Source of the DNA: Tautonia plasticadhaerens
GTDB lineage: Bacteria > Planctomycetota > Planctomycetia > Isosphaerales > Isosphaeraceae
DNA: 64,000 nucleotides
Assembly: GCF_007752535.1 (NCBI RefSeq)
Contig: NZ_CP036426.1
Span: 6,386,001-6,450,000, forward strand
Direction of reading: 5' to 3'
The position numbers were made by a program, and so were the translations under genes. This document shows positions 27,270 to 63,000 of this stretch, in pieces (the stretch's first letter is position 1; every line of letters starts with the position of its first letter). The notes beneath the pieces were generated by a model, which saw nothing but the letters and a program-made list of their open reading frames with translations, did not search any database and was not told where the DNA came from.

Positions 27270-27302
27270 GGGGATGCCTGATCAAGGGCCATCGCCCCAG
27301 GC

Positions 27303-30300
27303 TCATTCGAATCGCTCGGCCTCGCGGTCGCCCCGGGAGAGCAGATAGGCGAGCAAATCGAAGACCTCCTCCTCGTCGAGCGTGTTCAGCAGCCCCTCTG
27401 GCATCATCGAGACGGGAGAAGGCCGCATCTCCTCGATCTTCGATCGCTCGACCCGGTCGAGGGCATTGGGGTCGAGCATGTTCGACATGACCATCAGGTT
27501 GTCGCCGTTGAGGTTGACGATCCGGCCGGTGACGACGCGGCCATCCTCGGTGGCGATCATCACGGCCTGATACTGGTCACTGATCTCCTTGCTCGGGTGG
27601 ATGATCGACTCGATCAGATCTCGGGGGCTGAACCGGCCGGCCACGCCAGTCAGGTCGGGTCCCACGGCCCCGCCCTCTCCGGCATACCGGTGGCAGGAGA
27701 AGCAGGTGGTCTCGGCGAACAGGCGACGCCCCCGGTCGTAGTCTCGACCTCCGTCTAGGCCCTCGTCGAGCCGGGGGATCAGTTCGTCGAGCGACCATTC
27801 CTTCACGAACGGCCGGAGGACGGCGACCTCCGCAGAAGCGGGCTCGGGCTGGGCCTCGATGGTCGGTCGGAGTGCCTCCGCTTCGTCATCGCTCAACGTG
27901 GCCACCGCATCGTTCTTGATGTTGCGGACGAAGTTGGCGAAGCTCGATCCGCCCCGATAATTGGCCGCCCTGAGGAACCAGCGAAAATAGGTCTCTCGGA
28001 GTTCGGGAGTCCAGCCGGTCGTCAAGATGCGGAGCATCTGGGCATAGTTGATCTGCTCCTCCTGCGTCGGCGCCTGGTCCAGCAGGGAAACAGTCTTGGT
28101 CGCGGCGTTCGGGGCCTGGAGATAGATGAGCAGCCGGGCGAGTTCGGCGTTCAGTTCCACGGCTTGGGCCGGGTAGGCCGGGTCGAAACGGGAAACCAGG
28201 CGAGCCCGGGTCTCGTCATCGGGCGGGCCCATGCGGTTGAACAGAACGGCGTAGACTCGAAGCAGATCGAGTTTCTGCGTCGCGGTCAGCTCCTCCCAGG
28301 CCGGTGCGAGGCGGTCGAGGGCATCCAGAATTCGTTGTTTGAGCTGGAGGTCGACTGGCGGATCGGCGGGCTCGCGGTGGGCCGGGTCGGGAGCACTCAC
28401 GCGGATCAGGGCGAGAAGGGCATTGGCCGCGGCCTGGGGATCGACTTCGGCGAGGGCGCGATCGTGCCAGAACTCCCCGTTCTGGAACTCGATGGCAACC
28501 CGGGCCGCGTATCGAACGAATCGATCCGGATGTCCCAGGTGAGGCCAGATCGAGCCGATCGCATCCGAATCCCTCCGCCCGTGATAGGCTTCCAGCGTGC
28601 GACGGAGTTCCCGGAGGTCGGCCCCCTCGTCGCTCTCCACGGTCGGGCGAATCGGCTCACCTCCCGTGTACCTGACGCGATAGAGGCTCGACGAGGTGCG
28701 TCGTCCGCCGACGGCGACATACATCGCCCCGTCGGCCGGGTTGATAACTAGGTCGGTCAAGGGGAGCGGCGTGCCGGTGAGGAACTCCTCGGTGGTGGCG
28801 GTATAAGTGGCACCCGAAGGCTCCAAATGCACGGCATAGAGCTTCCCGTAGCTCCAATCACAGATGAAAAGCGCATCTTGATACCTCGCCGGGAACTTCG
28901 CGTCGTAGCCGAACGCGATGCCGGTCGGGGAGCCGGGACCGATGTCGACGACGGCGGGGAGGCTGTCGAGGTAGTACGACGGCCACTTGCCCGCGCCGTT
29001 CCGCCAACCGTAGTCGGAACCGCTGACGACGTGGTTGATCCGGGTCGGCCGATACCATGGGGTGTTGATGTCCCACTCCATGTCCGCGTCGTACGTGAAC
29101 AACTCCCCCTCGCGGTTGAACGCGAGGTCGTAGGGGTTTCGATATCCCATCGAGATCAGCTCCCACTCCCTGCCGTCGGGATCGACCCGGTAGATGCAAC
29201 CTCCGGGGGCGAGGACGTCGGCCATGAAGCCGTTGCCGTCGGGCATCCGGGGTAGGAGTTGGTCCTCTCCCCAGACGGGGGGGACTCGGGTGGCATCGTA
29301 GTCGGTCAGCTGAGTGCCGTTTCCGCAGACGACGAACAGGGCGTCGCCCTGCGGACTGGGGACGATCGCGTGAGGGCCGTGCTCGCCCCGGCCGTCGAGG
29401 GCATGGAGCTGCTCGACGGTATCGAGGGCATCATCCCCGTCGGTGTCCCGGACGCGATACAGGCCGCTCGCGAACCTGCCCCCGGTGTTGACCATGACGT
29501 AGAGGCTGTCGAATGCCCAGAGGAGCCCCTGTGCCTCACCGACCTCGACGTCGATCGGCTCGACGGCCACCTCGCCCTGCTCTCCGACGGGAGGCGGGGT
29601 GACGCGGTAGAGCTTGCCGTACTGGTCGGAGACGATCAGTCGCCCTTCGGGATCGACGGTCATGGCGACCCACGACCCCTGCGTTTCGGCCGGGACCGAG
29701 TATAGCAACTCGACCTCGAATCCGTCGGCAACCTTCAGAGTCCCGAGATCGGCCGCCGGAGGGGCCTCCGAATCGACGGGAGCTGCATCCCTAGGTCGCT
29801 CGGCCTCCTCCCGGACCCGGGCCTTCTTCGAACGGCCCTCGCCTTCGGGGAGACGACGGAGGCGGAGATCCTTGAATTGCACCGTCATCGGTGGGCCTGC
29901 ATGGACCTGAAGCGCGATCAGGCCTTCCAGCTCACGCTCGGACGCCTGGCGGTCGATCACCTCGACGACCGTCCGGCCGTTGATCCTGTGGACCAACCTC
30001 GGGCCCCGGGCGATGATCGTCAGTTCGTTCCATTCTTCGAGGTCGACTTCAGGAACCTCACCTTCCAACTCCCCCTCGACAACCTTCTCGCCCTCGGGGG
30101 TCACGACGACCCGCTGACCGCTCTCGGCGACGATCCCCCGGCCCCGCTCGTCGTAGAGCATGCCGAGGTAGCGAGGGTCCGGGTGGATATCGGCCTGATA
30201 GCCCCCGACGGAATATTCGCCGATTTCCGGCCGCTCATTGCTTCGGTACTGGATCCCGGAGTTGTTGTCCCCGATGAGTCGGAACTGGGCCCGAAGCTCG

Positions 30301-30566
30301 AAGTTCCGGACGGGATCACCCCGATAGACGAGGAACTTGTTGTATTCCAGGGGAGCGTCGGCGGAGGTTTTGCCGGTGATGGCGCCGTCCTCGACGGACC
30401 AGAGGGAGGGGTCGCCCTCCCATCCGGAAAGGTCTTCGCCGTTAAAAATGGGCTCGAAATCTCCCTCGTCCTGAGGCGGCTCGACGGCGCCGGCTAGGGA
30501 GAGGGCCAGGACCAGGGCGACCGACATACCGAGGACGGCGGTCAACCGGGGACGCGTTCGGGACAT
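27303..30566 (-). CDS. DUF1080 + PVC-type dehydrogenase + cytochrome c protein
   Basis: A 1087-residue exported protein. From the ATG at 30566 (after a GAAAGG site) it starts with a signal peptide ([20 protein letters not shown]), then a DUF1080 domain ([37 protein letters not shown]). A beta-propeller of the PVC membrane-bound-dehydrogenase type follows ([47 protein letters not shown]), then helical repeats. The C-terminal c-type haem domain has [26 protein letters not shown] (CxxCH) and a distal Met region. Probable function: periplasmic oxidation of a sugar or sugar derivative with electron transfer through haem (inference). An upstream TTG at 30584 is a less likely start. Confidence 0.85.
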   Translation of the reverse strand: [1087 protein letters not shown]

Positions 30567-31159
30567 TGCTCGGACCTTTCGCAATCGACAGGGATGGAAC
30601 TGGTCTCCGAGGGCGGAATTGCAAGCTCCCCGGCGACCGGCCGCGAGCAGGGGCGGCGAGGTTCACGACGGGGCCCAGCACGATCGATCGATCCCCTCGA
30701 CCAGGATCTTGGCCGATCGAGGAGGATGGGCGATCCTCGAGAGACCTTCGCTTCATCCTGCCCGGCTCGCATCCTTCACACAAGTCGGGAGCGGGGGGCG
30801 GCAAGGTCGATCGCGTGGACTCCCTGCGAGGGGCGTCGGCCAGTGGCTGCCTGAAAGACCCCGAGGCCAACCGTATGACCCGCTCGATGCCGGGCGGCAT
30901 GCCGGTTTCCCCGCCCGGGGTCCATGACCCGAGTTCCCGTACAGGCCTCGGACACTTCCTGCCGGCGACCTCCCCCATGCCAGCTAAACCATCTCCTGCG
31001 GCATCCGCGACATCGATGCACTCGCCCCGAGGATCCGTCCCTCTGGGTGATCTTGTACGATCCGGCGGGGACGCACCCCAACGAAGACGACTATTTCTAC
31101 AGTTGTAACTACTGACCGGCGCGCAAAGAGCGTCAAACTGATAGCAGTAAGATCGAGGG
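30567..31159. other. 590-base region before the IS cluster, no recognised gene
   Basis: It holds the promoter of the leftward cytochrome gene and the left flank of the insertion cluster. Overlapping frames exist on both strands, but none has family-like sequence with a ribosome-binding site. The GC content drops near 31080-31150, close to the IS boundary. Confidence 0.4.
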
Positions 31160-38316: not shown

Positions 38317-40151
38317 TAGGAGTGATCTCGTTGGCGGGCCCCGCTCCCACCTCGGTGACCACTCCGATCGGCATCAGTCGAGCCCAAGAGTCGCCGGACA
38401 AGGCGATGGAGGTCGGATCGACCGATGGGTATCGCCACATAGCCGGCCACGAACGCGACGCTCCCGATCGCCAGGTGGACCGAAAAGGGCGTAATCCGAG
38501 CGATGGGTCCGTCGCCCCTGGGGTCGGCTGTGTACCCCGAGCCGTGCAGGAGCCAGCAAGACACCAGCATGGCGGCCGCCCCGGACAGCGGGGCGATCAG
38601 GGTCCGTCGAACGTATGCCGCAATCCCCACGTCGAGCACGCGGAAGGTATAGATCGCCGGGACGAGCAGGTTCGAGAACAAGGTGGTGAGCACGGTCCCC
38701 CAGATCACCCCCGAGACGCCCATCCGGTACGTCAGGAACAGGCTGAGCGGGAAATTCACGACGGCCCCGGCCAGCGCAGCCACAGCCACCACCGCGATCC
38801 TCCCGAGTCCCGTCGCCACTTGCACGTGAACGGCTACCACCAGCGGCAATGCGGCGATGAGGAACAGCCTCATCAGCCGAGCAAGTTCGGGGATCGAGTA
38901 AACTTTACTGCCTTCAAACTGCTGACCGACCCAGAGCTCCAGGAACGGACCGGCATACAGGAACGCGAGCACGCCAACCGGGAGGACCGCGGCCGTGTGC
39001 AATCGTGCACCGTCGTAGGTGACGCGGTCGAGACCATGCCGATCGCCGACGGCGGCGAGGCTCGCCACGGCGGGCATCACGAGGAAGGAAAGGGTCCAGC
39101 CGAGTTGTCGGAGCTGGAGGAACGGGCTGCTCACCGCCTTGTAGGCGGAAACCGCCGCGTCCGGATTCTCGATCGCGAAGCCGAGGATGGTCGTGTCGAC
39201 CTTGTCCGCTAAGACGACGCTCAACTGGATGAGGAAGATGTAGAAGCTGAAGTGGGCGAGACTTCGGAAGTCGGCAAGCCGGACGCGAGCCAGGCGCGGC
39301 CGGTACTCAAGCTTCCGGGCGATCACCCAGAGCGCCGGGCCGAGACTCAGGCCGACCTGGACGATCGTCTGGGCGACCACGACCGTCAGCAATGCCGGGG
39401 CGACCGCGACGTGTCCGAGCGTCACCCCGATCGCCGTCCCGGCGAGCGCACGAACGAGATCGCTCCCCCCCGGGGCGATGGAGAATTCCGCCCGATTCGA
39501 GGCGATCGCGACCAGAACGGTCCCGATGACGACCCCGATCAAGAGGACCGCGAAGCGGATCACGACGATGAGGACGTCGAAGCGCGGCATGACCTCATAA
39601 CGCCTGGCCGCCTGGAGGATGCTGGAGACGACCACGCTGATCCCGTAACAGGGGGAGGTCAACGCTTGGAGCCAGAGTAACTGGATGATCAGGCGATACT
39701 GGACGTCGTTCTCGGCGAACGTCGAATGCGGCATCAGCCCGTAGGCGACCACCATGAGGGCCGCGGATTGGACCAGTGCGATGATCGCGTAGAAGAGCAT
39801 GCCGCAGGAGATCGCCCGATCGACCCCGGCACGGTCGCCCCGCGTCCAACGCTCGGAGACCTGACGCTGGAGCGCGGAGCTCATGCCGAACTCGAACAGG
39901 AACTGGAAGAACCCGAATCCCCAGGCATACCAGTAGGCGCCGCTCAGGCCCTCTCCGAAAGCCCCCAGCATCAGCGGGATGCTCCAGAAGGCCGAGATCG
40001 CCTGCAAGGGGGTGCGTAACGCCAACCAGAAGGAACCGCTGAGGAGCTTCCCCAGCACCGGTGGCAGGGCCCGAGCTGGGGACCCCGGGCCGGAGGAGGG
40101 CTGCAACGGCGTCGGGGGCGTGGTGGCCGATTCCAAGGCGATTGTGCTCAC
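38316..40151 (-). CDS. Multi-spanning flippase-like membrane protein (MOP superfamily)
   Basis: A 611-residue inner-membrane protein with about 12-14 hydrophobic helices, resembling Wzx/RfbX-type lipid-linked polysaccharide flippases (LLSGSFWLALRTPLQAISAFW, YWYAWGFGFFQFLFEFGMSS, VDTTILGFAIENPDAAVSAYK). Such proteins move O-unit or exopolysaccharide precursors across the membrane. The N terminus is a Pro/Ser-rich cytoplasmic tail. The TAG stop consists of the TA target dinucleotide plus the terminal base of IS630 element B, so the natural C terminus may have been altered by that insertion. Divergent from the aspartic-protease pair. Confidence 0.82.
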   Translation of the reverse strand: MSTIALESATTPPTPLQPSSGPGSPARALPPVLGKLLSGSFWLALRTPLQAISAFWSIPLMLGAFGEGLSGAYWYAWGFGFFQFLFEFGMSSALQRQVSERWTRGDRAGVDRAISCGMLFYAIIALVQSAALMVVAYGLMPHSTFAENDVQYRLIIQLLWLQALTSPCYGISVVVSSILQAARRYEVMPRFDVLIVVIRFAVLLIGVVIGTVLVAIASNRAEFSIAPGGSDLVRALAGTAIGVTLGHVAVAPALLTVVVAQTIVQVGLSLGPALWVIARKLEYRPRLARVRLADFRSLAHFSFYIFLIQLSVVLADKVDTTILGFAIENPDAAVSAYKAVSSPFLQLRQLGWTLSFLVMPAVASLAAVGDRHGLDRVTYDGARLHTAAVLPVGVLAFLYAGPFLELWVGQQFEGSKVYSIPELARLMRLFLIAALPLVVAVHVQVATGLGRIAVVAVAALAGAVVNFPLSLFLTYRMGVSGVIWGTVLTTLFSNLLVPAIYTFRVLDVGIAAYVRRTLIAPLSGAAAMLVSCWLLHGSGYTADPRGDGPIARITPFSVHLAIGSVAFVAGYVAIPIGRSDLHRLVRRLLGSTDADRSGHRGGSGARQRDHS

Positions 40152-40450
40152 GGGAATCCGTCCCCGTCGGCCTTCGACATTCTGATGATCCCGCGCCCGG
40201 GTCGACGCGACGGGGCCCCATCATAGTCGTCAGGGACGATCGAAGGGTAGATCAATCGACCCACCCCGGAAACGGCCGACCGCCAATCGGCGGGTACGAG
40301 ACGCCGGGATGTATCGCCGGAACTTGCGTCCTCGTGGGGACATGAGATGCGGCCCAGGGCCTGTTCGGCAGGCAACGTCCGTTCTATGATGGAGGTGGCA
40401 TTCCCGATCATTCAGGATCGAGTCGATCGACCCCGAGAGGTGAGCCGCTG
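40152..40450. other. Divergent control region between flippase and protease genes
   Basis: About 300 bases with no supportable gene; it must hold both promoters. The region before 40451 includes a short AGAGGTGAG ribosome-binding site for the first protease gene. Confidence 0.4.
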
Positions 40451-41353
40451 ATGTCGCACTCCCGACGGTGGAAGCCCGTCCCGCTGCTGGCGATCGTCGC
40501 CCTGGCGGCGAGCCCGGCGGCAGAGGATGGCCAGCAGGATGAGGGCCGGCAAATCGGCCGGTCATTCCGGGTCCCCTATTTACTCACCGAGACGAATCAT
40601 CACGTCGTGCGTTGCCGGATTAACGGCCATGGTCCCTTCAATCTCGTCGTCGACACCGGGGCCCCCGCGCTTTTTCTCTCCGAAGAGGCAGCCGCGATGG
40701 CCGGCCTGGGGCGGAGCGACCGGAACTATTTCAGCCGCGTCGACCGCCTGGAGTTCGAGGGAGGTGCTGTCCTCGACGACGTGCAGACCAGGGTCGAGGA
40801 CATCTTTCAACTCGTCGGCATGAATGCCCTCGGGCTCCCCGGGGCGAAGATCGACGGCATGCTTGGCTTCAACGTGCTCGCCCGCTACAAGCTCGAGCTC
40901 GACCCGACCGACGATCGCATGACCTGGACCCGCCTCGAGTTCGAGCCCGAAGATCTCCCGGACCCCGGGCGACGGGGCAATAATGCCCCGGCCGAGGTGC
41001 AGGCCATGAGCCTGCTCGGCGGCGTCGCCAAGCTGGCCGCCTTGTTCGTGGGGAAGCAGCCCGAGGACACGAGAATCCCCCGGGGGTTCCTCGGCCTGGA
41101 ACTCGCCGAAACCAACGGAGAAGTGACGATCTCGGCCGTGCTCCCCGGCTCCCCGGCCGAAGGGGTGGGCATCTCGCCGGGCGATCGGTTGGTCCGCGTC
41201 CTCGGCCGGGATGTCGACTCGCTGGAGGACGCCCGGAAGGCCGTCGCCCGGGTGGAGCCGGGAGACACCGTGACATTGCGGATCGCTCCCTCCTCAGGTG
41301 GAGCGGATGTCGAGGCCAGGGAGCTGACCGTGATCGCCGGAAAGGGGCTCTGA
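40451..41353 (+). CDS. Retropepsin-like aspartic protease with PDZ domain (1)
   Basis: A 300-residue protein, probably exported (MSHSRRWKPVPLLAIVALAAS). Residues about 40-160 form a clan AA retropepsin-like domain with NGHGPFNLVVDTGAPALFLS (catalytic DTG), IDGMLGFNVLARYKLELD being the usual second half. Residues about 205-300 are a PDZ domain (FLGLELAETNGEVTISAVLPGSPAEGVGISPGDRLVRVLG). Together this suggests a periplasmic peptidase or peptide-binding protein. A related protein starts 3 bases after its stop, so they are probably co-transcribed. Confidence 0.82.
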   Translation: MSHSRRWKPVPLLAIVALAASPAAEDGQQDEGRQIGRSFRVPYLLTETNHHVVRCRINGHGPFNLVVDTGAPALFLSEEAAAMAGLGRSDRNYFSRVDRLEFEGGAVLDDVQTRVEDIFQLVGMNALGLPGAKIDGMLGFNVLARYKLELDPTDDRMTWTRLEFEPEDLPDPGRRGNNAPAEVQAMSLLGGVAKLAALFVGKQPEDTRIPRGFLGLELAETNGEVTISAVLPGSPAEGVGISPGDRLVRVLGRDVDSLEDARKAVARVEPGDTVTLRIAPSSGGADVEARELTVIAGKGL

Positions 41354-41356
41354 TCC

Positions 41357-42196
41357 ATGAGATTCGCTCGACGTCTGCTGCCGACGACGCTCGCCGCCTC
41401 ATTGGCGCTCGTCGGCCTCGGCTCGGCCAGGCCCGCCGTCGATCCCGAGGCCAAGGTCGAGGTGCCCTTCGATTTGCTGCCCTCGAACCACATGGTGGTC
41501 GAGGTCTCGCTCAACGGCGAAGGGCCTTATCGATTGATCTTCGACGTCGGCTCTCCCGTCACCCTGATCGGCAACTCGGCCGCCAAGGAGTCGGGGATCA
41601 TCGACGGGAACGCCCCCTTCGCCTTCCTGTTCGCCGCCCGGGGAGAAGCCGAGGTTAAGACGATGCAGGTCGGCTCACTGACGACCCAGGACGTGCCGGT
41701 GATCGTGATGGACCACCCCGTCGTGAAAGCCCTTGGCGACATCCTCGGCAAGCCGATCCATGGTCTCGTCGGGCACTCATTCTTCGCCCGATACAAGACG
41801 ACGATCGACTACCAGGCCGAGACGATGGCCTTCGAGCCGGTCGAGCACGAGATCCGGGACTTCTTGACCGACCTCCCCGATCGGCTGATGGGGCCGAAAG
41901 TCGCCCGCCGGATCATCGTCGAGCCGATGGCGCTCATCGGGTTCGCCCTGGAAGACACGCCCGAGGACGGGCCTCGGGGCGTGACCATCGTCTCGGTGCT
42001 CGACGACTCCCCCGCGGCACGCGCGGGACTCAGGCCGGGTGACGTCATCACTTCCCTCGACGGTCGATGGACGACCAGCATTCCCGACACCTACACTGCG
42101 GCTTCCAAGGTCGAACCGGGCCTCGAAATCGAGGTCGTCATCGACCGCGACGGTGAGGAAATGAAACTCGAGATGACCCCCACGGCGGGCATCTGA
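41357..42196 (+). CDS. Retropepsin-like aspartic protease with PDZ domain (2)
   Basis: A 279-residue paralogue of the preceding protein, with an export signal (RRLLPTTLAASLALVGLGSA), a retropepsin-like domain (NGEGPYRLIFDVGSPVTLIG, LVGHSFFARYKTTIDYQ) and a C-terminal PDZ domain (GVTIVSVLDDSPAARAGLRPGDVITSLDG). The catalytic motif reads D-V-G-S rather than D-T-G-S/A, so proteolytic activity may be reduced or lost and it could be a binding partner of the first copy (inference). Confidence 0.8.
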   Translation: MRFARRLLPTTLAASLALVGLGSARPAVDPEAKVEVPFDLLPSNHMVVEVSLNGEGPYRLIFDVGSPVTLIGNSAAKESGIIDGNAPFAFLFAARGEAEVKTMQVGSLTTQDVPVIVMDHPVVKALGDILGKPIHGLVGHSFFARYKTTIDYQAETMAFEPVEHEIRDFLTDLPDRLMGPKVARRIIVEPMALIGFALEDTPEDGPRGVTIVSVLDDSPAARAGLRPGDVITSLDGRWTTSIPDTYTAASKVEPGLEIEVVIDRDGEEMKLEMTPTAGI

Positions 42197-42316
42197 TCGG
42201 ATGGAATTCGGGCCACCGATCCGAACGATCTCCGATCGGTGTCCCCATGCGTGAAGGACTGATTCCCTCATCAAGCGGCGGAGGACCTCGTGCCGTACGG
42301 GAATCGGCAGCGACGG

Positions 42317-43528
42317 TCAGGCCCCGAATTTCTGGAGTCGGCCGGCGTGGGCCATCGCCAGGGGCATGATGTCCTTGGCGAGGATCTGGCCGAGCCCGCC
42401 CTTCATGCAAGGACGCTCCCCGAAGGTCGTGACCTCATCGGGCCTGACGGTGGCCGGGGCCGAGATGAGCAGCGGCACCGGATGGAAGCTGTGTGATTTC
42501 ATCCGACTGGGCGTGGAGTGGTCCCCGGTGACGACCAGGACGTCCGGCTTCAATTCCAGCAGTCTCGGCAGTTCGGCGTCGAGCGCCTGGATGACATCGA
42601 CCTTCCTGGCGAAATCGCCATCCTCGCCGGTGCTGTCCGTGTACTTGTAGTGGATGAAGAAGAAGTCGAAGTTGTCCCACTGTTCCCGGGCGACCTCAAA
42701 CTGGTCGGCGATCGTCCTGCCGGGTTCGACGACCGTCATCCCGACGAGCTTCGCCAGGCCCCGATACATCGGGTAGACGGCGATGGCCGCCGAGCGGAGG
42801 CCGTAGACCTCCTCCATCGTGGAGATGTCCGGGAACTTGGCGAATCCTCGCATCATGAGGAAGTTGGCGGGCTGCTCGTCTTTGAGGATCTCCTTCGCTT
42901 GCCGGAGGAACTCCGCGGCGACCCTCGCCGTCTTCTCCGATCCCGGCTCGAGGGCCTTCGGCTCCAGGGTGTGTAGCCCGGTCTGGAGCGGGTCGGTGTC
43001 AGCGACCCGATCGCCCAGGTCGTCTCCCCGGAATCGGACGACGAGCCGGTACTCCCGGACCGCCTCGACGAGCGTCTCGACCCCGTCGATCTGCACCCCA
43101 TCGGCGAGCTTTGCGACGAGCGTCTCGCCGACCTCGGTCGGAATCCGGCCGGCTCGTCGATCGGTGACTCGCCCCTCGCCGTCGATCGTGCAGAAGTTGC
43201 CTCGGATGGCCACGTCCCTCGGCCCGACCTCGACCCCGATCCCCAGCGCCTCGAGGACGCCCCGGCCGATCTGGTGGCGGAGCGGGTCGAAGCCGAAGAG
43301 GCCGAGATGCCCCGGACCCGACCCCGGCGCGATCCCGTGGGCGACGGGGATGCTCAAGCCCACCGTCCCCTCGGCGGCCAGCCGGTCGAGGTGGGGGGTC
43401 CTGGCCTCCTCCAGCTCGGTCGGCCCACCCGGTTCGATCGGCAGGCCGCCCAGCCCGTCGGCGACGAGCATGACGATCTTGGTCCCGTTGGCCTCTCGGA
43501 GTTGCCTGATCAGGTCCTGCTGGTTCAT
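42317..43528 (-). CDS. apgM: 2,3-bisphosphoglycerate-independent phosphoglycerate mutase (ApgM family)
   Basis: Interconverts 3- and 2-phosphoglycerate in glycolysis. The 403 residues show the archaeal-type iPGM (alkaline-phosphatase superfamily) pattern: KIVMLVADGLGGLP (metal-binding Asp), TPHLDRLAAEGTVG, GPGHLGLFGFDP (Ser nucleophile region), AIRGNFCTIDGEGRVTDRRAGR, and VLVVTGDHSTPSRMKSHSFHPVP with the metal-binding D, H, H. Length is normal. It is the last chromosomal protein gene before the tRNA and the island. Confidence 0.92.
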   Translation of the reverse strand: MNQQDLIRQLREANGTKIVMLVADGLGGLPIEPGGPTELEEARTPHLDRLAAEGTVGLSIPVAHGIAPGSGPGHLGLFGFDPLRHQIGRGVLEALGIGVEVGPRDVAIRGNFCTIDGEGRVTDRRAGRIPTEVGETLVAKLADGVQIDGVETLVEAVREYRLVVRFRGDDLGDRVADTDPLQTGLHTLEPKALEPGSEKTARVAAEFLRQAKEILKDEQPANFLMMRGFAKFPDISTMEEVYGLRSAAIAVYPMYRGLAKLVGMTVVEPGRTIADQFEVAREQWDNFDFFFIHYKYTDSTGEDGDFARKVDVIQALDAELPRLLELKPDVLVVTGDHSTPSRMKSHSFHPVPLLISAPATVRPDEVTTFGERPCMKGGLGQILAKDIMPLAMAHAGRLQKFGA

Positions 43529-43731
43529 CGCGGGAAGGCTCTCGCTCCATGCGGCTCGGTCGATCAGTCGAACATCGAGGAGGCATTGTGCCGTCCCCGG
43601 GCATAGCGGGTCAACTCGCCTCTCGACTCCCCTTCCGCCGGTTGCCCTCTTCCCGGGCCCTGGATCGTCCTGTTAAACTGATCGTCCGACACTCATGATC
43701 CTGTCCGGAAGATTCCCTGCAGGAAGTCGTG

Positions 43732-43814
43732 GCCGAAGTGGCGGAATGGCAGACGCGCCGGACTCAAAATCCGGTGGGGTAACACCCGTGTGGGTTCGAG
43801 TCCCACCTTCGGTA
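43732..43814 (+). tRNA. tRNA-Leu(CAA), 5' half plus island-derived 3' half
   Basis: The 83-base class II tRNA folds with acceptor GCCGAAG/CTTCGGT (last pair G-U), an anticodon stem CCGGA/TCCGG with loop CTCAAAA (anticodon CAA), a variable arm GGGG-TAACA-CCCG and T arm GTGGGTTCGAGTCCCAC. CCA is not encoded. It is the attachment site of the genomic island: its 3' portion recurs at 63948-64000 with a different variable arm. Confidence 0.95.
43756..43775 (+). repeat. Attachment-site repeat, left (attL core)
   Basis: CGCCGGACTCAAAATCCGGT, covering the anticodon stem-loop of tRNA-Leu, is repeated exactly at 63948-63967. A second shared block of 21 bases (43788-43808) covers the T arm. Strand exchange in this first block explains why the variable arms differ at the two ends. 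Confidence 0.8.
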
Positions 43815-43819
43815 TTCAG

Positions 43820-43848
43820 AAGCCCGGCGAGCAATCGACGGGCTTTTT
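43820..43848 (+). terminator. Rho-independent terminator after tRNA-Leu
   Basis: AAGCCCG (43820-43826) pairs with CGGGCTT (43839-43845), loop of 12 bases, followed by TTTG and TTT. It lies on the island side of the crossover. Confidence 0.75.
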
Positions 43849-43980
43849 GTTTGCGCCGCAATCACTTACGACAACCCGTTGTTCCTCCGTCGGCTCTGCG
43901 GCGGGGTCTGCCGAATGTCTTGTCCCGTCGCTATCCTTGACCCATCTTGTCACAAATCGACCGAAGTTGAATTCGATCCC

Positions 43981-44019
43981 TGTAAGCATTACTGTAAGCA
44001 GGAGGCCCTCCTGTAAGCA
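43981..44019 (+). repeat. Left arm-type repeats TGTAAGCA (three copies)
   Basis: TGTAAGCA occurs at 43981-43988, 43993-44000 and 44012-44019. The first two, 12 bases apart, match a pair at the right end (63853 and 63865) in both sequence and spacing. They are probably arm-type binding sites of the island's tyrosine recombinase. Confidence 0.65.
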
Positions 44020-44530
44020 GCACCAAAGCAACCGGGGACATCGGAGATGGGCTACCTCTTCAAGCAGTAGTGGACCCGCAACGGCGTCGTCCACGAGTCG
44101 AAGAAGTGGTACGGCGAATACCGGGACCAGGACGGCAAGCTCCTGCGGGTCGCCCTCTCCTCGGACAAGCAGGCGGCCAAGGCCATGCTCGTGGACCTGG
44201 AGCGCAAGGCCGAGCGCCGCAAAGCTGGATTCATTGATGGATTCACCGAAGCGGGACGGAGTCCGATCCTCGGTCTCATGTCCGACTACCTCGGAGACAT
44301 GAAGCTTGGAGGACGCTCGGAGCGGCACCGCAAGGACACCGAGCGGCTCCTCCGGATCGTGATCCGAGAATGCGGGTTCGAGACCCTGGCTTCCCTGCAC
44401 GCAACCAAGCTCGACAAATTTCTTGCCCGGCTCACCTCCTCGGCGCGGACCAAGAACACTCACCGGCAAGCAATCCTGGGGTTCGCCAATTGGTGCGTCC
44501 GAAAAGGGCACCTGGAATTCAACCCCTTAG

Positions 44531-45829
44531 GGGATTGAAAGGACAAAACTCTTCCGTATCCTGAGACCTTCGCACCAGGAGATCAAGGAGATACGCAGAT
44601 GCGGCCCAGCCCCGAGATGATCCCCGTCCTCATCGATGCCGCCAAGGCCCTCAAGGGCAGTCCGAAGCGAGTCTTCATGGCCAAGACCGTCGCAGCGATG
44701 GGGCGGGGTGGACAACGCTGGGCCCAGGAGCATCTCGGCTGGTGCCGGGAGACCATCCGCAAGGGCACGCACGAACTCCGCTCGGGCATGACCTGCGTGG
44801 ACGCCTTCTCGGCCCGCCGTCGCAAGCCCGCCGAGGAGCACTTGCCCCGACTCCTCGATGACATCCGCAGCATCGCCGACGGGCAGAGCCAGGCCGACCC
44901 CAAGTTCCAGACCAAGGGGCTCTTCACCCGGATCAGTGCCGCCGAGGTCCGACGCCAGTTGATCGCCACGAAGGGCTACACCGACGAGGAGTTGCCCACC
45001 CAGCAGACCATCAACACCAAGCTGAACCTGCTGGGCTATCGCCTCTCCAGGGTGGCCAAGTGCCGCCCCCAAAAAGAGTCCCGCAGACCGATGCCATCTT
45101 CGATCAACTGAAGGCGGTCAACCCCGAGGCGGATCGGGCCAGGGGCACCCTGCGGCTCTCGATCGACGCCAAGGCGACGGTGCATGTCGGCCCCTTCTCA
45201 CGGCGGGGCCGGAGCCGGACCGGCACGAAGGCGGCGGATCACGACTTCAAGCCCGTGGCGACGCTGACCCCCTTCGGCATCTTCCTGCCCGAGCACGACG
45301 ACCTGTGGCTGTACATGGCCCGGTCGAAGGTCACCAGCGACTTCATCGCCGATCGCCTGGAGCAATGGTGGGAGGGCGTCCGCCTGCGGTTCCTGCGGGT
45401 CAAGACGCTGGTGATCAACCTGGACAACGGCCCGGAGAACCACAGCCGGCGGAGCCAGTTCCTCAAGCGGATCGTGGCCTTCGCCCGCAAGTATCGCCTG
45501 GTGGTGCAGTTGGCGTACTACCCGCCGTACCACAGCAAGTACAACCCGATCGAGCGGTGCTGGGGCGTGCTGGAGATGCACTGGAACGGGTCGCTGCTGG
45601 ACTCGGTGGAGGCGGTGTTGGGATTCGCCCGATCGATGACCTGGAAGCGGAAGCACCCGGTGGTCAGCCTGGTGGAGACGACCTACGCCAAGGGGGTCAG
45701 GCTGAAGCCCGAGGAGATGGAGGCGTTGGAGGCCGAGGTGATCCGCCTGCCGTCGCTTGAGAAGTGGTTCGTGAAGATCCCTCGTAAGCGAGGCAGGCCA
45801 CGGAAGACGTAGCTTCTTTCTGGTGCCTA
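44531..45829 (+). mobile_element. ISAzo13-family insertion sequence, copy 2 (inside integrase)
   Basis: Same sequence as 33021-34319, flanked by AG at 44529-44530 and 45830-45831. Insertion splits the island integrase between its core-binding and catalytic domains. Confidence 0.9.
44599..45812 (+). CDS. ISAzo13-family transposase, copy 2 (two frames)
   Basis: Two overlapping frames (44599-45111 and 45060-45812) encode proteins identical to those of copy 1, with the same A5 slip site at 45071-45075. DDE residues in LSIDAKATV, LVINLDNGPEN and NPIERCWG are intact. Identity with copy 1 implies very recent transposition within this chromosome. Confidence 0.88.
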
Positions 45830-46520
45830 AGCCCGTTCGACCAGGCCCGAAGGCGAGACGATGCTCAAGCGGAGGGCCTTGACTGTAGATGAATTACGGC
45901 GACTCTTGGAGGCGACCCTGGTCCGAGCCCTGCGGGAGCGGCAACTCGTCCGAGCTGTGCCGAACAAGGGTAAACCCGTCGCACGGGTCAAGCCCGTGGT
46001 CCGGGCTCGTCTGGAACGGCTGGGGCGGGAGCGGGCCTTGCTCTACAAGGCAGCCTTTTACACCGGTTTCCGTCGGGGCGAGTTGCGTGAGATGAGGGTC
46101 AATCACCTGACCCTGGACGGCTCGGCTCCCCGCATCTCTCTCCCGAAGGAATTGACCAAGAACAAGCGGGACGCCCATATCCCGCTCCGGGCCGACTTCG
46201 CCTCGGAACTGACGCGCTGGATCGACGTGGCGGGTCTGGGGCAGGGAGACCGACTCTTCATGGTTCCCAAGCGGATCGCCCTGGTGATGCGGAAGGACCT
46301 GGAGTTCGCCGGGATCGCCTACCGGGACGACCGTGGCCGGGTGGCCGACTTCCATTCCTTGCGGAAGTGCATGGCGACCCACCTGAACACGCAAGGCGTC
46401 CCGATCGTGACTGCCAAGGAATTGCTGCGGCACGGCACCGTGGAACTGACAGCCGGGGTCTACAACGACGCCGAATCGCACGACTTGAGGACGGCGGTTT
46501 CCAAGCTGCCGGTGCTGTGA

Positions 46521-47839: not shown

Positions 47840-47858
47840 TTGGTCGGCGTGACCAAAT
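47838..47858. promoter_or_regulatory. Palindromic operator ATTTGGTC-N5-GACCAAAT
   Basis: A perfect 8-base inverted repeat with a 5-base spacer overlaps the -10/start region of the rightward promoter. Similar half-sites lie at 47758-47764 and 47879-47885. This is the expected binding site of the adjacent XRE regulator. Confidence 0.65.
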
Positions 47859-47896
47859 TTCCCATCCTTAGTCGTTCCGACCAAACCAGGGGCGAG

Positions 47897-48721
47897 ATGA
47901 GCCAGCAATCCTCGATCGAATGGACGGATTCCACCTGGAACCCCGTCCGGGGCTGCACCAAGATCAGCCCCGGGTGCGCCTACTGCTACGCCAAGACCTT
48001 CGCCGAGCGCTTCAGGAACGTGCCTGGCCATCCCTATGAACAGGGCTTCGACCTCCGGCCCATCCCCGGGAAGCTGGACGACCCGCTCCGCCGGTCGGCC
48101 CCGAGGATGATCTTCGTCAACTCGATGAGCGACCTCTTCCACGAGGGCATCCCCGACGACTACATCGAGGCGGTCGTTGAGGTGATGCGGCTTGGGGGCT
48201 GGCACACCTACCAAGTCTTGACCAAGCGTTCGGAGCGGATGCGGGACCTGCTCTCGTCCACGCACCGTGCCGCCACCGAGGCGGATCACATCTGATGGGG
48301 CGTCAGCGTCGAGGACCGTCGCTATGGGCTGCCCCGGATCGATCACCTGCGGCAGAGCCCGGCGCGATTCCGCTTTCTGTCGATCGAGCCGCTGCTGGAG
48401 GACCTCGGGCCGATCAATCTCAGCGGCTTCTCTTGGGTCATCGTAGGGGGCGAGAGCGACCACGGAGCCAGGCCGATGTCCCAAGAATGGGTCCGATCCA
48501 TCAGTGACCAGTGCCAGGCAGCAGGAGTCCCGTTCTTTTTCAAGCAGTGGGGCGGATTCAAAAAGAAAGCTGCCGGTCGTGAACTAGACGGACGGACTTA
48601 CGACGAGGTGCCGGAGCGGCCCCCCCACCCGGTCCCCAGCCCGGCTCGACGGCGGGAGATGATCGCAGAGGTGCAAGGGTTGGTCTCCGACCTACCCATC
48701 AACAAGGCGGCTACGTCGTAG
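47897..48721 (+). pseudogene. DUF5131 (phage Gp37/Gp68 family) gene with internal TGA
   Basis: From the ATG at 47897 the protein reads MSQQSSIEWTDSTWNPVRGC with the radical-SAM-like cysteine cluster CTKISPGCAYCYAKTFAERF, then MIFVNSMSDLFHEGIPDDYI and YQVLTKRSERM. A TGA at 48293-48295 follows EADHI where the family has Trp (ATC TGA TGG GGC GTC). After it the same frame continues GVSVEDRRYGLPRIDHLR, SIEPLLEDLG, WVIVGGESDHGARP and FFFKQWGGFKKK to the stop at 48721. The change is most simply TGG to TGA. Family members are often found with a three-Cys-motif partner gene; I do not see one here. Its promoter and operator remain intact. Confidence 0.85.
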
Positions 48722-52553: not shown

Positions 52554-53006
52554 CTATCGGACGAACCAGACGTTGGTGATCTTGCCGCCCTCGACCTGAT
52601 AGATCGCCACGGCGGTCATCTCCCGGCCCCCGGCGGTGACCCGCTCGTGGTCGATCACGTAGTCGCCCTGGACGATCCGCCTCGTGACCTCGGCGTGCAG
52701 GTCCGGCGTCCGCTCGAAGAAGGCCCCGTACCGCTCCCGCATCGCGTCGAGGCCGGAGGTCCGCAACTCGTCGGGGAAGTCGTAGAGCTTGACCTGCGGC
52801 GAATAGGTCCCCAGGAAGCCGTCGAGGTCCCGGCGGTTGAATGCCTCAAGCTGCTCCTGGACGACCCGCTCGGGTTCGCTCGCCTCGGCGGGGACCGCCC
52901 GTTCCTCCGTCGTCTCCTGACGGGCAACCCCGGACCCAGCGACCAATGTGACTCCCATGACCACGATCCCGGAGCAACAGAGAACGCCCCGAAGCCTTCG
53001 TCGCAT
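52554..53006 (-). CDS. Exported NTF2/SnoaL-like protein
   Basis: A 150-residue protein whose ATG at 53006 follows a GGAGG site. It has a signal peptide (GVLCCSGIVVMGVTLVAGSGVA) and a nuclear-transport-factor-2-like fold: VVQEQLEAFNRRDLDGFLGTY, LRTSGLDAMRERYGAFF, GDYVIDHERVTAGGREM and AVAIYQVEGGKITNVWFV. The fold serves many steroid-isomerase, dehydratase and stress-related proteins; the ligand is not readable. Confidence 0.85.
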   Translation of the reverse strand: MRRRLRGVLCCSGIVVMGVTLVAGSGVARQETTEERAVPAEASEPERVVQEQLEAFNRRDLDGFLGTYSPQVKLYDFPDELRTSGLDAMRERYGAFFERTPDLHAEVTRRIVQGDYVIDHERVTAGGREMTAVAIYQVEGGKITNVWFVR

Positions 53007-53350
53007 CAGTATCCCTCCTATGGAGATTTGGAGATCGACCGAGGGCATCGTGCCTCGTGTCGCCCTCTCCCCGGCCAACCTACGGTCCAGCCCGACGGGC
53101 ACCAGGATACACCGGAGAGCACCCCCGACGCACGCAAGCCGAGCCTGGCGTCCCAGGCGTCGGCTTCGACCCGCTTCGACCCGAGAGGTCCCGCCCTCGT
53201 TCTGGGCAGCCCCAGCAGCTTCGACCGCTCGGCCCTTGCTTTTCCTGGGGGAAACATCACCCTGTTGCGAGGGCCGCTCGGCCCCTTCCCGGAGGCTCCT
53301 CCGGGACCCATCTCCTCTCACGTCTCGTCGGACCGAAGGGAGCGGATGCC

Positions 53351-53458
53351 ATGGGCGACAAGGCGCCACGCGACAAGGCGAAGCAGAAGAAGATCGCCGA
53401 CAAGAAGGCCACCCCCTCCAAGCCCGCCTAGGGCCAGGAGAAGCCGGCGAAGAAGTAG
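53351..53458 (+). pseudogene. Tiny Lys/Ala-rich protein with internal TAG
   Basis: MGDKAPRDKAKQKKIADKKA starts at 53351 and stops at TAG 53429-53431; the frame then continues GQEKPAKK to TAG 53456-53458. Short basic proteins of this style occur in planctomycete genomes. If the first TAG was CAG, the original would be 35 residues. Weak evidence, no ribosome-binding site beyond GGGAGCGG. Confidence 0.35.
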
Positions 53459-53508
53459 ATCACCGGGACGGCCGGCAGATCACCGGCGAGGAACGGCTCG
53501 GCGACGAT

Positions 53509-53542
53509 GCCGGATGGATGGGATTCTCGTCATCCATCCGGC
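53509..53542 (+). terminator. Hairpin before the TauE/SafE gene
   Basis: GCCGGATGGATG (53509-53520) pairs perfectly with CATCCATCCGGC (53531-53542), ten-base loop. It ends 30 bases before the permease ATG and could be a leader hairpin or a terminator of the tiny upstream gene. Confidence 0.5.
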
Positions 53543-53571
53543 GTCCGGCTTCGAGGGGCGGCAGGGGCACC

Positions 53572-54318
53572 ATGCCAGCGGACCACACGACGATCCCGGT
53601 GCTCGCCGTCCTCTTCCTCGCCACCCTGATCCGCTCGGCGTTCGGCTTCGGCGAAGCCCTCGTCGCCATGCCGTTGCTCGCGTTGTTCATCCCCGTCACG
53701 ATCGCCGCCCCGCTGGCCGGCCTCGTCTCGGTCACGGTCGCCGGGCTCATCCTCCTGCGGGACTGGAGGGAGGTCCACGCCGGCGGCGCCGGGCGGCTCG
53801 TCATCGCCACCCTGCCCGGCATCCCGCTCGGCCTGCTGCTGCTGACGACGGTCGCCGAGCCGGTCGTCAAGGCGGCCCTCGCCGTCGTCATCATCACCTT
53901 CTCGGCGTCCCGACTGGTCGGGGACAGCGGGTTCGCGCTGGAGGACGACCGCCTGGCGTGGCTGTTCGGGTTCGCCGCCGGGGTGCTCGGCGGCGCCTAC
54001 GGCATGAACGGGCCGCCGCTGGTGGCCTATGGGGCGCTGCGGCGCTGGTCCCCCGAGCGGTTCCGGGCGACCCTCCAGGGCTACTTCCTGCCCGCCAGCC
54101 TGGTCGGCATGGCCGGCTACTGGGCGGCCGGGCTCTGGGTCCCCGCCGTGGCCCGCTACTACCTGATCTCGTTGCCGGTGGTCCTGGCGGCGACGGCCCT
54201 GGGCCGTGTGCTCAACCGCCGCATGGACGGGCGTCGGTTCCTCCTCTACGTCCACGTCGGCCTGGTGATGATCGGGGGGATGCTCCTGATCCAGTCGGTG
54301 TGGGGTATGGGCCGGTGA
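53572..54318 (+). CDS. TauE/SafE-family permease
   Basis: A 248-residue inner-membrane protein with about eight helices in two repeated halves, typical of the TauE/SafE (DUF81) family of sulfite, sulfonate or other anion exporters. Family marks are LIRSAFGFGEALVAMPLLAL near the N terminus and WLFGFAAGVLGGAYGMNGPPLVAYG in the second half. The ATG at 53572 follows a GGGGCAGGGG stretch; the frame is open far upstream but that region is not family-like. The substrate is unknown. Confidence 0.88.
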   Translation: MPADHTTIPVLAVLFLATLIRSAFGFGEALVAMPLLALFIPVTIAAPLAGLVSVTVAGLILLRDWREVHAGGAGRLVIATLPGIPLGLLLLTTVAEPVVKAALAVVIITFSASRLVGDSGFALEDDRLAWLFGFAAGVLGGAYGMNGPPLVAYGALRRWSPERFRATLQGYFLPASLVGMAGYWAAGLWVPAVARYYLISLPVVLAATALGRVLNRRMDGRRFLLYVHVGLVMIGGMLLIQSVWGMGR

Positions 54319-57085: not shown

Positions 57086-58473
57086 GGGCCATCCAGGATC
57101 AAGTTCCAGTTTTCTGGTAGGATGACATGGACTCCGACGAGACCACAGGGAAGGCGCGTCCATGCCCCAGCGTGACGTCCATCCGTGCCAGTGCCCCTCC
57201 TGTACCGGCCCCGAGCCACATCCCGATCAGGAGATCCATCGCCGGATGAACCTCCTGATGAGCCGGCTCGACGAGCAGCAACGCCGCTGGTACGCCGCCG
57301 TCGAATCCTCCAAGGTCGGCCACGGCGGCGGTCGCCTCCTGTCCCGGATCACCGGCCTGGACGTCGATACCATCCGCCGGGGCCGACGGGAACTGGCCGA
57401 CTCGCTGCAGGGCCAACCCGGCGATCGGGTCCGCTTGCCCGGTGGCGGACGGCCTGCCGTCGAAAAAAAAGCCCCGAGGTCGTCCCGGCCCTGACCGCCG
57501 TCGTCGAGCCGACGACCGGCGGCGACCCGATGGGTCCGACCGAGTTCGTCCGCCGCAGCCTCCCGGCCATCGGGGCCGACCTGGAGCGGCTCGGGCACGA
57601 CCTCAGCCCCACCACCATCGCCCGGCTGCTGCGGGATCAGGACTGCTCGTTGCGGGTCAACCGAAAGCGGTTCACCGGGCCGGATCACCCCGACCGGGAC
57701 CGGCAGTCCCGCAACATCGACGAGCGGATCGCCATCTTCGAGGGCCTGGGGCAGCCGATCATCGGCGTCGATAGCAAGAAGAAGGAACTGGTCGGCAACT
57801 TCAAGAACGCCGGGGCCGCCTGGCTCCGAGAGCCCGAGGAGGTCAATGTCTATGACTTCCTCAGCGATGCCGAGTGCCGGGCGACCCCCTACGGCATCTG
57901 CGACGTGCTCTCGGGCCGGGGGCACGTCTGCGTCGGCACCTCGGCGGATACGCCGGCCTTCGCCGTCGAGGCGATCGGCTCGTGGTGGGCACGCCACGGC
58001 TCGGAGCGATACCGGGGGGCCGACGAGTTGCTGATCCTGGCCGACGGCGGCGGCAGCAACGGCCATCGCCCCCGGCTCTGGAAGGCCCGGCTGCAGGAGC
58101 GGATCGCCGACCGCTACGGGCTCCACGTGACGGTCTGCCACTACCCGACCGGGGCGTCGAAGTGGAACCCGGTGGAGCATCGGCTCTTCGGGCCGGTGAG
58201 CATCAATTGGGCCGGGCAGCCGTTGCGAAGCCTGGAGGCGATGCTCGGCTGGGCCCGTGGGACGGAGGTCGGCGGGGCGGGAGTGACGGCGAGCCTGGAC
58301 CGGGCGGAATATCCGACGAAGGTGAAGGTGCCCGCCGCCGTGATGGAGCGGCTGGACCGGGAGCGGCATGAGGTCTGCCCGGACTGGAACGACACCATCA
58401 GCCCACGGCAGCCGCAAGTGCTGCATTGATATGGGCCAAGAGGAACTCGGAACTTATTCTTGGATGGCTCCTA
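57086..58473 (+). mobile_element. ISAzo13-family insertion sequence, divergent copy nested in IS1595
   Basis: Inverted ends: left GGGGCCATCCAGGATCAAGTT, right mirror TAGGAGCCATCCAAGAATAAG. Flanked by AG at 57084-57085 and 58474-58475, the same flank as the other two ISAzo13 copies though its transposase is quite different. Confidence 0.78.
57162..58429 (+). CDS. ISAzo13-family transposase, divergent copy (A8 slip site)
   Basis: The first frame (57162-57494) holds the DNA-binding part (MNLLMSRLDEQQRRWYAAVE, VDTIRRGRRELADSL). At an A8 run (57463-57470; A AAA AAA heptamer in the zero frame) a -1 slip continues into the second frame to 58429: ATIARLLRDQDCSLR-type region, PIIGVDSKKKELVGNFKN (Asp), ELLILADGGGSNGHRPR (Asp), CHYPTGASKWNPVEHRLFG (Glu). 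The A_AAA_AAA heptamer is a classic -1 recoding site. All acidic residues are present, so it may be active. Confidence 0.85.
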
Positions 58474-60063: not shown

Positions 60064-63000
60064 TCAACGCCCCGACGATCCGGATGCCTCGGGGCCTGTA
60101 GCACCGGCAGTCGCCCCCGGTGCGCCGGGGATGGGGCGGGCCTGCGGGTCCTCCGGCGGCCGGTCCAGGGCCAGGTAGGCGAACAGGTCGGCAAGCTGGC
60201 GGCGGTCCAGCAGGTGCTCGATCCCCTCGGGCATCATCGACAACCCGCCGACCCGGACGTACTTCACCTCGTTGCGCGGGATCACCTCCCGGCCGCCGCC
60301 GGGCAGGGCCAGCACGATCCGCTCTGCGCCGTCCTCGGCCACCAGGCCGGTGAGGTTGCGCCCGCCCTCGGTGACGACCGTCGTCGTCCGGTAGGACTCG
60401 CCGATGACGAGGCTGGGGTCGAAGACGCTGGCGAGCACCTGCTCGAACGAGCCCCGGCCGTTAGAGGTCAGGTCCGGGCCGACCGCCGTCCCCTCGCCGT
60501 AGATCGTGTGGCACTGGGCGCAGAGGTTCCGAAAGACGACCCGCCCGGCGAGCGGATCGCCGGGGTCGTGCCGGAGGTACTCATCCATCTCGGCGACGAC
60601 CCGCTCCCGCTGAGGGTCCCGCTCGGCCCGGATGGTCCCCCAGGCGTCCTCCACGGCCCAGATCGCCTCCCGGTCGTTGCCCTCCATGATCCGCCGCAGG
60701 TGGGCCTGGTTCAGGGTTCTGCGGGGCAAGTCGCCCGAGATCACGGCGTCGAGGAGCCGCCTGGCCCAGGGTTCTCGTTGCAGCAGCAGATCGACGGCGA
60801 GCGGCTGAAGCTCCGGGGCCATCGCCGGGTACCGCCCCAGCACCACCTCGGCGACCTTGCGGTCGTCCGACCGCCCCAACGTCGCCAGGACCCCGGTCAG
60901 GAACTCCGGTCGGCCTTCCGAGAGGACCCGATCCAGGGCCTCCGGCAGTTCGGGGTCCCCGAAGGCGACCAGCGCCTCCAGGGCTCGAAGGCGGATGTCC
61001 TCGGGCGTCCCCGGTGAGGTGAATTGCCCCCGGATGGCGTCGGCCTCCACCGACCCCACGCCCAGCCGGGCGGCGAGCAGCAGGGCGCCGAAGGCCAGCG
61101 GCGAGTCCGATTCCTCGGCCTGGATGCGGTCGAGGACCGGTCGAAGCTGATCCCGCAAGGCGACCCGCCGTTCCTCGGAGACCTCCGGCACCCGGTCCGA
61201 GACGGCCGACAGGCACTCCTGGGCCAGTGCGGCATCCTGTTCCACCAGCCGCCCGAGGATGGCCCGCACCGGCCCAAGGTCGGCGTCGGGGTCGCCGACG
61301 AGCCGGTCGATGACGTTGGGCAGCAGCTTGGCCAGGCCGGGGGCAGAATCCAGATCGATCTCCTCGATCAGCCGGACGAAGCGGTCGCCCTCCTCCGGCA
61401 GCAGGGGATGCAGGTTGGGCCAGGCGATGCTCGTGATCATCCGGTCCTCGCCGCAGGAGGCCAGCACCTCCACCAGCACCGGAAGCGGGTCCAGCCCCGA
61501 GACCTTCCGGGCGGCGATGGCGACCTGGAGTTGCACGTCGGGCGAGGCGTCCGTCGCCAGGGAGGTCACCGCCTCACGGATCGTCGGCTCGACCTCGCCG
61601 AAGTCGCCGGCCGCCCGCACGCCCCAGGCCCGGTAGGCGGGATCGGCGTGCGCCAACAAGCGGGCGTGGAAGCCCGGCTCCAGGTGCCCGGTGCCGATCA
61701 AGGCCCACAGCCCGTGCAGCCGGGCCTTCTGGGGGGCCGACTCGTCCAGGACCAGGGCTTCCAGCCGCTCCCGGATCAGCGGCGAATCCCGCTCGGCGAG
61801 CAACCGCTGGGCAGCCTCCCGGAAGAAGATGTTCGCACTGGACAACCGGGCGATCAGCGCCTCGTCATCCTCGCTGCCCAGGTCGAACACCGGTGCCCTC
61901 GGCGTGTCCTCGTAGCGGACCCGGTAGAGCCGCCCCTTGAGCCGGTCGATCCCCTCGGGGTCCCGGTTGGCGTCCTGGTAGCAGTGGTAGCGGTCGTACC
62001 AGTCCAGGACATACAAGCAGCCGTCCGGGCCGACCTTCTGGGCCACCGGCATGAACCAGGCGTCGTTCGCATTCAGGAAGTCCGGCTCGGCGCGGGCGAC
62101 GTAGGTCGAGCCGTCCCGCTCCAGCCGATCGACGTTGATGCAGCCGCCATGGATGTTGCCCGTGTAGAGCCGATCCCGATACTCCTCCGGGTAGGCATCG
62201 CTGTCGAGGTAGGCCAGGCCGCAGTAGGCGGTCATCTGGTGCCCGTGGTCGGTGATCGAGCCGAGGCGGATCGTATAGGGCGGATAGGCCCCGGCCTGGC
62301 GCTTGTAGTAGCCCGTCTCGACGAAGTGGAACAGGTGGTCCTTGGCCCAGTGGCACGCCTCGACGATGGCCGCACCCTCCGGGTCCCAGGCCAGGCCGTA
62401 GGGGTTGCTGGTGCCCTCGCAGACGACCTGGAATTCCCGGGTGCGCGGGTGGACCCGCCACATCGCGCAGGTAAACTCGTAGGTGTTGCCGTTGTTCGAC
62501 TCGATCGTGCTGGGGTTGAAGACGCCGTTGAGGCCGTAGAGCCAGCCGTCGGGGCCCCAGGTCAGCGTGCTGGGAAGCTCGTGGGCGTCGGCCCGGCCGA
62601 AGCCGGTGACGACCACCTCGACCTCATCGGCCCGGTCGTCGCCGTCGGTGTCCCGCAGGAACAGGAGGTCGGGGGCGTTGAGGACCCAGACGCCGCCGTA
62701 ACCGACGGCGACCCCAGTCGGGATGTTCAGGGCGTCGGCGAAGACGGTGGTGCGGTCAGCGGCGCCGTCGCCGTCGGTGTCCTCCAGCAGCTTCACCCGG
62801 TCCCGCCCCGAGCCTGGCTCCCGGCGGGGATACTCCAGGCTCTCGGTGACGTAGATGCGGCCCCGGTCGTCGAAGGCCATGGCGATGGGGTTGACGATCT
62901 GCGGCTCGCTGGCGACCAGTTCGACCGTGAACCCCGGGGGGACAGTCATCGCCTCGATGGCCTCCTCGGGCGAGTAGGGGCGGTTGGGGAGCCGGTCCTG

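Follow-up and report, generated by a model that had tools for sequence, protein, structure and literature searches.

An island in tRNA-Leu(CAA) of Tautonia plasticadhaerens with different variable arms at its two ends and a probable anticodon-loop crossover

The tRNA-Leu(CAA) gene, its displaced copy and the island between them

We analyzed a 64,000-nt stretch of the Tautonia plasticadhaerens genome (contig NZ_CP036426.1), called the window below. ARAGORN found a single tRNA in the window, tRNA-Leu(CAA) at 43732-43814 on the + strand. A displaced 3' piece of tRNA-Leu(CAA) lies at 63948 to about 64008, running past the window end to ...CTTCGGTATT. The island between the two copies is about 20 kb long and contains a tyrosine integrase gene, which starts about 230 bp to the right of the tRNA. 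An intact tRNA gene at one end, a 3' fragment in direct orientation at the other end and the integrase gene inside are the arrangement of a tRNA-integrated island. Variable arms were scored by eye as G type (GGGG-TAACA-CCCG and near copies) or C type (a C-rich 5' strand, with forms such as CCCC-GCAA-GGGG, CCTC..GAGG, CCTG..CAGG, GCCC..GGGC and the like). The features of the locus are as follows.

43732-43814 (+): functional tRNA-Leu(CAA) (ARAGORN) at the attL junction, with a host 5' part and a probable island 3' part
43756-43775 (+): anticodon arm block at the left end, common to both copies; core (direct repeat)
43763-43769 (+): 7-nt anticodon loop within the left anticodon arm block
43776-43788 (+): left variable arm, G type, GGGGTAACACCCG, a class to which 21 of the 39 tRNAs read in the family belong
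43788-43816 (+): T arm, 3' acceptor strand and GGTATT at the left end, common to both copies (direct repeat, extended by reading)
43820-43849 (+): terminator-like hairpin on the island side of attL, with 27 of 30 bases as in genome G004
43980-44019 (+): three CTGTAAGCA repeats at the left end, probable integrase arm-type sites (repeat search)
44048-44535 (+): N-terminal part of the tyrosine integrase (phmmer similarity), with an early in-frame stop, truncated by a transposase gene
44599-45812 (+): ISAzo13-like transposase (PF07592), frame-shifted, inserted in the integrase gene
45861-46520 (+): C-terminal catalytic part of the tyrosine integrase (PF00589, 59.2 bits)
57185-58429: second ISAzo13-like transposase (PF07592, by Pfam), one long frame
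63852-63873 (+): two CTGTAAGCA repeats at the right end (repeat search); CTGTAAGCATTRCTGTAAGCAG is common to this segment and 43980-44001
63948-63967 (+): anticodon arm block at the right end, beginning two bases before the anticodon stem (direct repeat)
63968-63980 (+): right variable arm, C type, CCCCGCAAGGGGG, the probable host original (single match and tRNA reconstruction)
63980-64000 (+): T arm of the displaced fragment (direct repeat), with about 8 bases more beyond the window end

The two copies share direct repeats of 20 bp (43756-43775 = 63948-63967) and 21 bp (43788-43808 = 63980-64000, cut by the window end), and the spacing of both blocks is 20,192 bp. With the sequence beyond the window, the T-arm repeat is 29 bp in total (43788-43816), to ...CGGTATT. 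The att core runs from the anticodon stem (63948 on) to the 3' end of the tRNA and is interrupted only at the 13-base variable arm (43776-43788 versus 63968-63980), which alone distinguishes the two copies. An earlier note on this DNA had described a common 20-base anticodon arm and 21-base T arm with differing variable arms at both ends, and the repeat search confirmed this. The note had also stated that both arms fold. Both are predicted to do so, but the left arm is given a 3-bp GGG/CCC stem with a 6-base loop (-5.2 kcal/mol) instead of the 4-bp GGGG/CCCG pairing of the note; the right arm has a predicted 5-bp stem including one U-G pair, with a GCAA loop (-8.2 kcal/mol). The left arm has one match in the window at one mismatch or fewer (0.05 expected). 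The right arm has one match with 0.51 expected, and its weight comes from its setting, not from its letters. A whole-genome scan for the pattern of anticodon arm plus T arm gave no match beyond these two copies. Gene conversion from the genome's tRNA-Leu(TAA) was considered and rejected, as its arm differs.

The integrase gene is in pieces. A 155-aa piece of 44048-44535 resembles a 546-aa integrase relative (phmmer, E 2.5e-6), and a Pfam search of 44074-44535 found no match. The inserted transposase scores 206 bits with PF07592 at 45060-45812 and 23.7 bits, below the cut-off, at 44599-45111. Because the integrase gene is broken by the transposase gene, self-excision is unlikely, and the island is probably no longer mobile by its own integrase. 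The related integrase of Aquisphaera insulae (G035), by contrast, is uninterrupted, with a 573-aa open frame free of stops. The 22-bp sequence CTGTAAGCATTRCTGTAAGCAG is found once inside each island end (43980 and 63852; 0 expected in shuffles). A further copy of CTGTAAGCA by itself is at 44011, and it occurs once in the other scanned loci (G013). The island also carries genes for a DUF5131 protein (47840-48295), a TauE/SafE-like permease (52948-54318) and a large DUF7133/HEAT-repeat protein (60064-63276), in this order.

The upstream gene block is syntenic in the congeneric genomes G002 and G003, but in the window genome it is inverted relative to both neighboring blocks. The inverted block and its neighbors are at 27300-30620 and 38589-43542 of the window and at 70263-74100 of the extension (in L026); gene order close to the island is thus locally rearranged. 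The island is followed directly on its right (L026:1145-5958) by a gene pair encoding an AAA_27 ATPase and a metallophosphoesterase. In G002 and G003 the second gene of the pair lies on other contigs, and a search of T. sociabilis GM2012 (G001) gave no match for it at E <= 1e-40. Assignment of the host side by right-flank synteny failed, with the upstream block inverted and one searched right-flank gene on other contigs in G002 and G003.

Variable arms in Tautonia and in the family Isosphaeraceae

The sample consisted of 45 Isosphaeraceae genomes, four of them from the genus Tautonia (the window genome, G000, is counted in both). Besides T. sociabilis, the named genomes are Aquisphaera insulae (G035), G026 of the same genus, Singulisphaera acidiphila (G028), Singulisphaera sp. 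GP187 (G011) and Paludisphaera soli (G016).

When 43775 is joined to 63968, the resulting attB model is a valid 83-nt tRNA-Leu(CAA), identical in 83/83 bases to the tRNAs of T. sociabilis and G003. The G002 tRNA is one base from the window tRNA and 10 bases from the attB model, all 10 in the variable arm, which is of the G type (GGGGTAAAACCCG). G002 has a clean empty site, the only one in the genus: host sequence homologous to G003 resumes 68 bp past the tRNA. G003 has a 6.3-kb insert at the tRNA, containing a decayed tRNA fragment and no PF00589 match. In T. sociabilis the conserved upstream gene is 26.9 kb from the tRNA, the tRNA-bearing contig has no PF00589 match, and no second tRNA fragment was found in the 39 kb scanned, apart from chance matches of 23 bases or fewer. 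Directly after the T. sociabilis tRNA comes a motif that is likewise found behind tRNAs and fragments at islands elsewhere in the family, and which is taken for the end of another island class. The C-type arm is the state of two congeners, neither of them a perfect empty site, and the sole perfect empty site is of the G type. The earlier note had expected the right-end arm in island-free relatives, with the left-end arm there as the contrary outcome; the expectation held for T. sociabilis and G003 and failed at the clean empty site of G002. Both window copies end in GGTATT and the tRNAs of the three congeners in GGTACT.

In an rpoB tree, in which 13 of 36 inner branches are not well supported, G013 and G014 are joined to Tautonia (97/90), followed by G006 (91/76), all with C-type arms. 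The next branch is G005 (84/72), with a G-type arm. G002 and G003 are sisters (100/100), and the branch uniting G000 with them is weak (90/67). Identity of the upstream gene to that of the window is 90% in T. sociabilis, 87% in G003 and 86% in G002. The tree needs 11 changes if the window is scored by its right-end arm and 12 if it is scored by its left-end arm, a slight preference for the right-end arm as the host state. The tree favors a C-type ancestor of Tautonia; a G-type ancestor of G000, G002 and G003 is possible because the branch joining them is weak.

In the family, 39 tRNAs were read through the arm: 21 are of the G type (18 with GGGGTAACACCCG exactly) and 18 of the C type, whose stems vary. 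Different arms again are found in G014 and in G022, which was not scored. Six genomes (G019, G022, G024, G027, G032 and G066) were left out, with no full tRNA-Leu(CAA) of either class among the matches listed; the G021 tRNA was scored although a contig end cuts it after 77 bases. The tRNAs of G007, G010, G034 and G060 were read and are absent from the tree. The states of the arm, T loop and stem were assigned manually. Mapped on the rpoB tree, the arm type of 35 genomes had no phylogenetic signal (12 changes versus a mean of 11.86 in 5000 shuffles, 65% of them as good). The T-loop base required 7 changes versus 11.19 expected (0.9% of shuffles as good), the anticodon-stem pair 4 versus 5.77 (1.7%), and the tail base (GGTAC/GGTAT) showed no signal, with 6 versus 5.67 in 33 rows. 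The tRNA-Leu(TAA) control was uninformative (4 changes versus 4.75 expected, 30 rows); on the 27 rows in common with it, tRNA-Leu(CAA) gave 8 changes versus 9.32 expected (26% of shuffles as good). The lack of signal in tRNA-Leu(CAA) is therefore based on the 35-row test together with the different behavior of the T loop and anticodon stem.

At least 8 of the 39 genomes (G000, G003, G004, G017, G020, G026, G028 and G035) have a 3' fragment downstream of the tRNA on the same contig and strand. In two of the eight pairs found, G000 and G026, the arm class differs between tRNA and fragment, in opposite directions: the tRNA of G026 is of the C type and its fragment of the G type, the reverse of the window. 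The variable arm has probably been exchanged often, and exchange seems to have gone in both directions, which weakens arguments from arm class alone. Island presence was not significantly associated with arm type (8/21 G type versus 4/18 C type, Fisher p = 0.32). Evidence for an island was scored manually as either an integrase match no more than about 5 kb away or a tRNA fragment elsewhere on the contig, and many contigs end early. Integrase similarity searches were run with tRNAs masked.

A motif like GACTTACGGCGAATC is found directly 3' of many tRNA-Leu(CAA) genes or fragments of the family (e.g., L027, L030, L033, L066, L067 and L089); it probably marks the end of a different class of islands that use this site. 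In G007 (L083), an integrase of the window's similarity group is located tail to tail with a C-type tRNA-Leu(CAA). In G023 (L098, L099), integrases lie near tRNA-Leu fragments whose anticodon loop reads CTTAAAA, which suggests that tRNA-Leu(TAA) is a target too.

Crossover site and direction of transfer

Positions 43747-43853 of the window show 93.5% identity over 107 bp to the right-hand tRNA copy of G004, a genome of another genus. The alignment is unbroken from the D arm through the G-type arm (GGGGTAATACCCG in the G004 copy) to the terminator. Among the loci scanned, the terminator is matched within 7 mismatches by the window's own sequence and that of G004 only. At the left end the terminator lies beyond the repeat, in the direction of the island, and the arm linked to it is therefore probably island-borne. 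Whatever the crossover, the terminator arrived with the island or by a later change, and it is simplest to assume that the arm was captured along with the terminator and came in with it. The 3' half of the working tRNA looks imported; the DNA right of the G004 copy is taken for host DNA.

Strand exchange probably took place in the anticodon loop, leaving the island's G-type 3' half in the working tRNA and the host's C-type half displaced to the right. The ~20-kb tyrosine-integrase island would have entered tRNA-Leu(CAA) with an attP carrying the anticodon arm, G-type variable arm, T arm, 3' end and terminator. After exchange within 43763-43769, the working tRNA would be of host origin as far as the anticodon and of island origin from there on, and the host 3' half with its C-type arm would lie at the right end. 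An anticodon-centered attP predicts what is seen at the right end, where identity sets in two bases ahead of the anticodon stem. The earlier note had placed the crossover in the anticodon arm with the same direction of transfer, and this is still the best fit, partly supported, with two congeners in favor and one against. Further points against it are the reverse arrangement in G026, the want of a clean empty site in either C-type congener and the GGTATT ends of both window copies where the congeners have GGTACT. From the sequence we infer the exact crossover, the direction of transfer and the arm-type role of CTGTAAGCA.

With a T-arm or 3'-end crossover instead, the G-type arm of the working tRNA would be the host's own and the right-end C-type arm would be that of the island. 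This would agree with the G-type arm at the clean congeneric empty site of G002 and with the C-type tRNA and G-type fragment of G026, and attP in the T-stem region (J, 1836) is about as common in the Islander survey as the anticodon-centered kind (2083) (PMC4383910). A T-arm attP, however, needs no anticodon arm at the right end, where 20 bp are present and bounded at the stem, and C-type arms are found in T. sociabilis, G003 and the nearest other genera. We consider a T-arm or 3'-end crossover unlikely, although from this locus by itself, where the copies differ in the variable arm only, a T-arm exchange would be possible. It is more doubtful still that the mismatch arose later or otherwise, by successive tandem islands or by homologous recombination or gene conversion among copies of the tRNA. 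The downstream fragments in the family show the site to be a hot spot, arm type is unlinked to phylogeny and the local gene order is rearranged, all of which would suit a later change. Against it, a single integration is enough to explain the one fragment and the one matching pair of end repeats in the window, and the two other tRNA-Leu genes read in the genome have different arms. Divergence in place by compensatory mutation is very improbable: the C-type stems do vary (CCCC, CCTC, CCTG and GCCC) and G014 and G022 differ again, but all 10 differences between the attB model and the G002 tRNA are in the arm, and no intermediates between GGGG-TAACA-CCCG and CCCC-GCAA-GGGG were seen among the 39 family tRNAs, read by eye.

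Known integration systems and meaning of the arm exchange

The mechanism of the favored anticodon-loop exchange is already known, with anticodon-centered integration and sequence differences described in mycobacteriophages. Islander assigns an anticodon-centered attP to 2083 of 3919 catalogued tRNA islands, about half (PMC4383910), and a review describes the anticodon loop and stem as fitting the 7-bp overlap and core-site layout (PMC8371274). The window island is like the Islander class A islands in having a tyrosine integrase, a restored tRNA with a displaced 3' fragment and, in the favored reading, the anticodon-loop crossover assigned to those islands (PMC4383910); unlike in those, the entire variable arm differs between its restored tRNA and the displaced piece, and its integrase is broken by an insertion. 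Mycobacteriophage Boilgate integrates at attB-4 in tRNA-Lys(TTT), and its attP carries a tRNA 3' half with five differences in 43 bp; strand exchange is placed before the first mismatch, and the host tRNA gains phage bases and is predicted to fold (PMC10865867). As proposed for the window, attP-borne differences enter the host tRNA, and putative arm-type sites flank the Boilgate core. Boilgate, in contrast, is a phage whose integration was shown by PCR, and it carries point differences where the window has an exchanged arm class (PMC10865867). Mycobacteriophage Omega uses the same tRNA isotype as the window, tRNA-Leu(CAA) at attB-11, with a 44-bp core over the 3' half and the tRNA rebuilt at attL; its host belongs to an unrelated phylum, and the account of Omega consulted mentions no arm difference (PMC10865867). 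The portions consulted of the open-access literature, including PMC4383910, PMC8371274, PMC10865867 and PMC11476347, contain no report of a whole variable-arm swap or of its scatter through a family. The integration is of an ordinary type, and its scar is unusually easy to read.

Where attP and attB are not identical within the tRNA, the island ends record the donor of each half, and the point of exchange and direction of transfer can be read from the sequence. It is possible, and we suggest it tentatively, that the variable arm of tRNA-Leu(CAA) in Isosphaeraceae is a mobile allele: islands would enter at the anticodon loop and be lost through the identical T arm, leaving the swapped arm behind as in G002. 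This would explain why the arm lacks phylogenetic signal and the T loop, only a few bases from it, does not. If arm swapping is as frequent as the family data suggest, mobile DNA would be rebuilding an essential tRNA gene again and again, and an apparently empty site could still show by its arm that an island had once been there.
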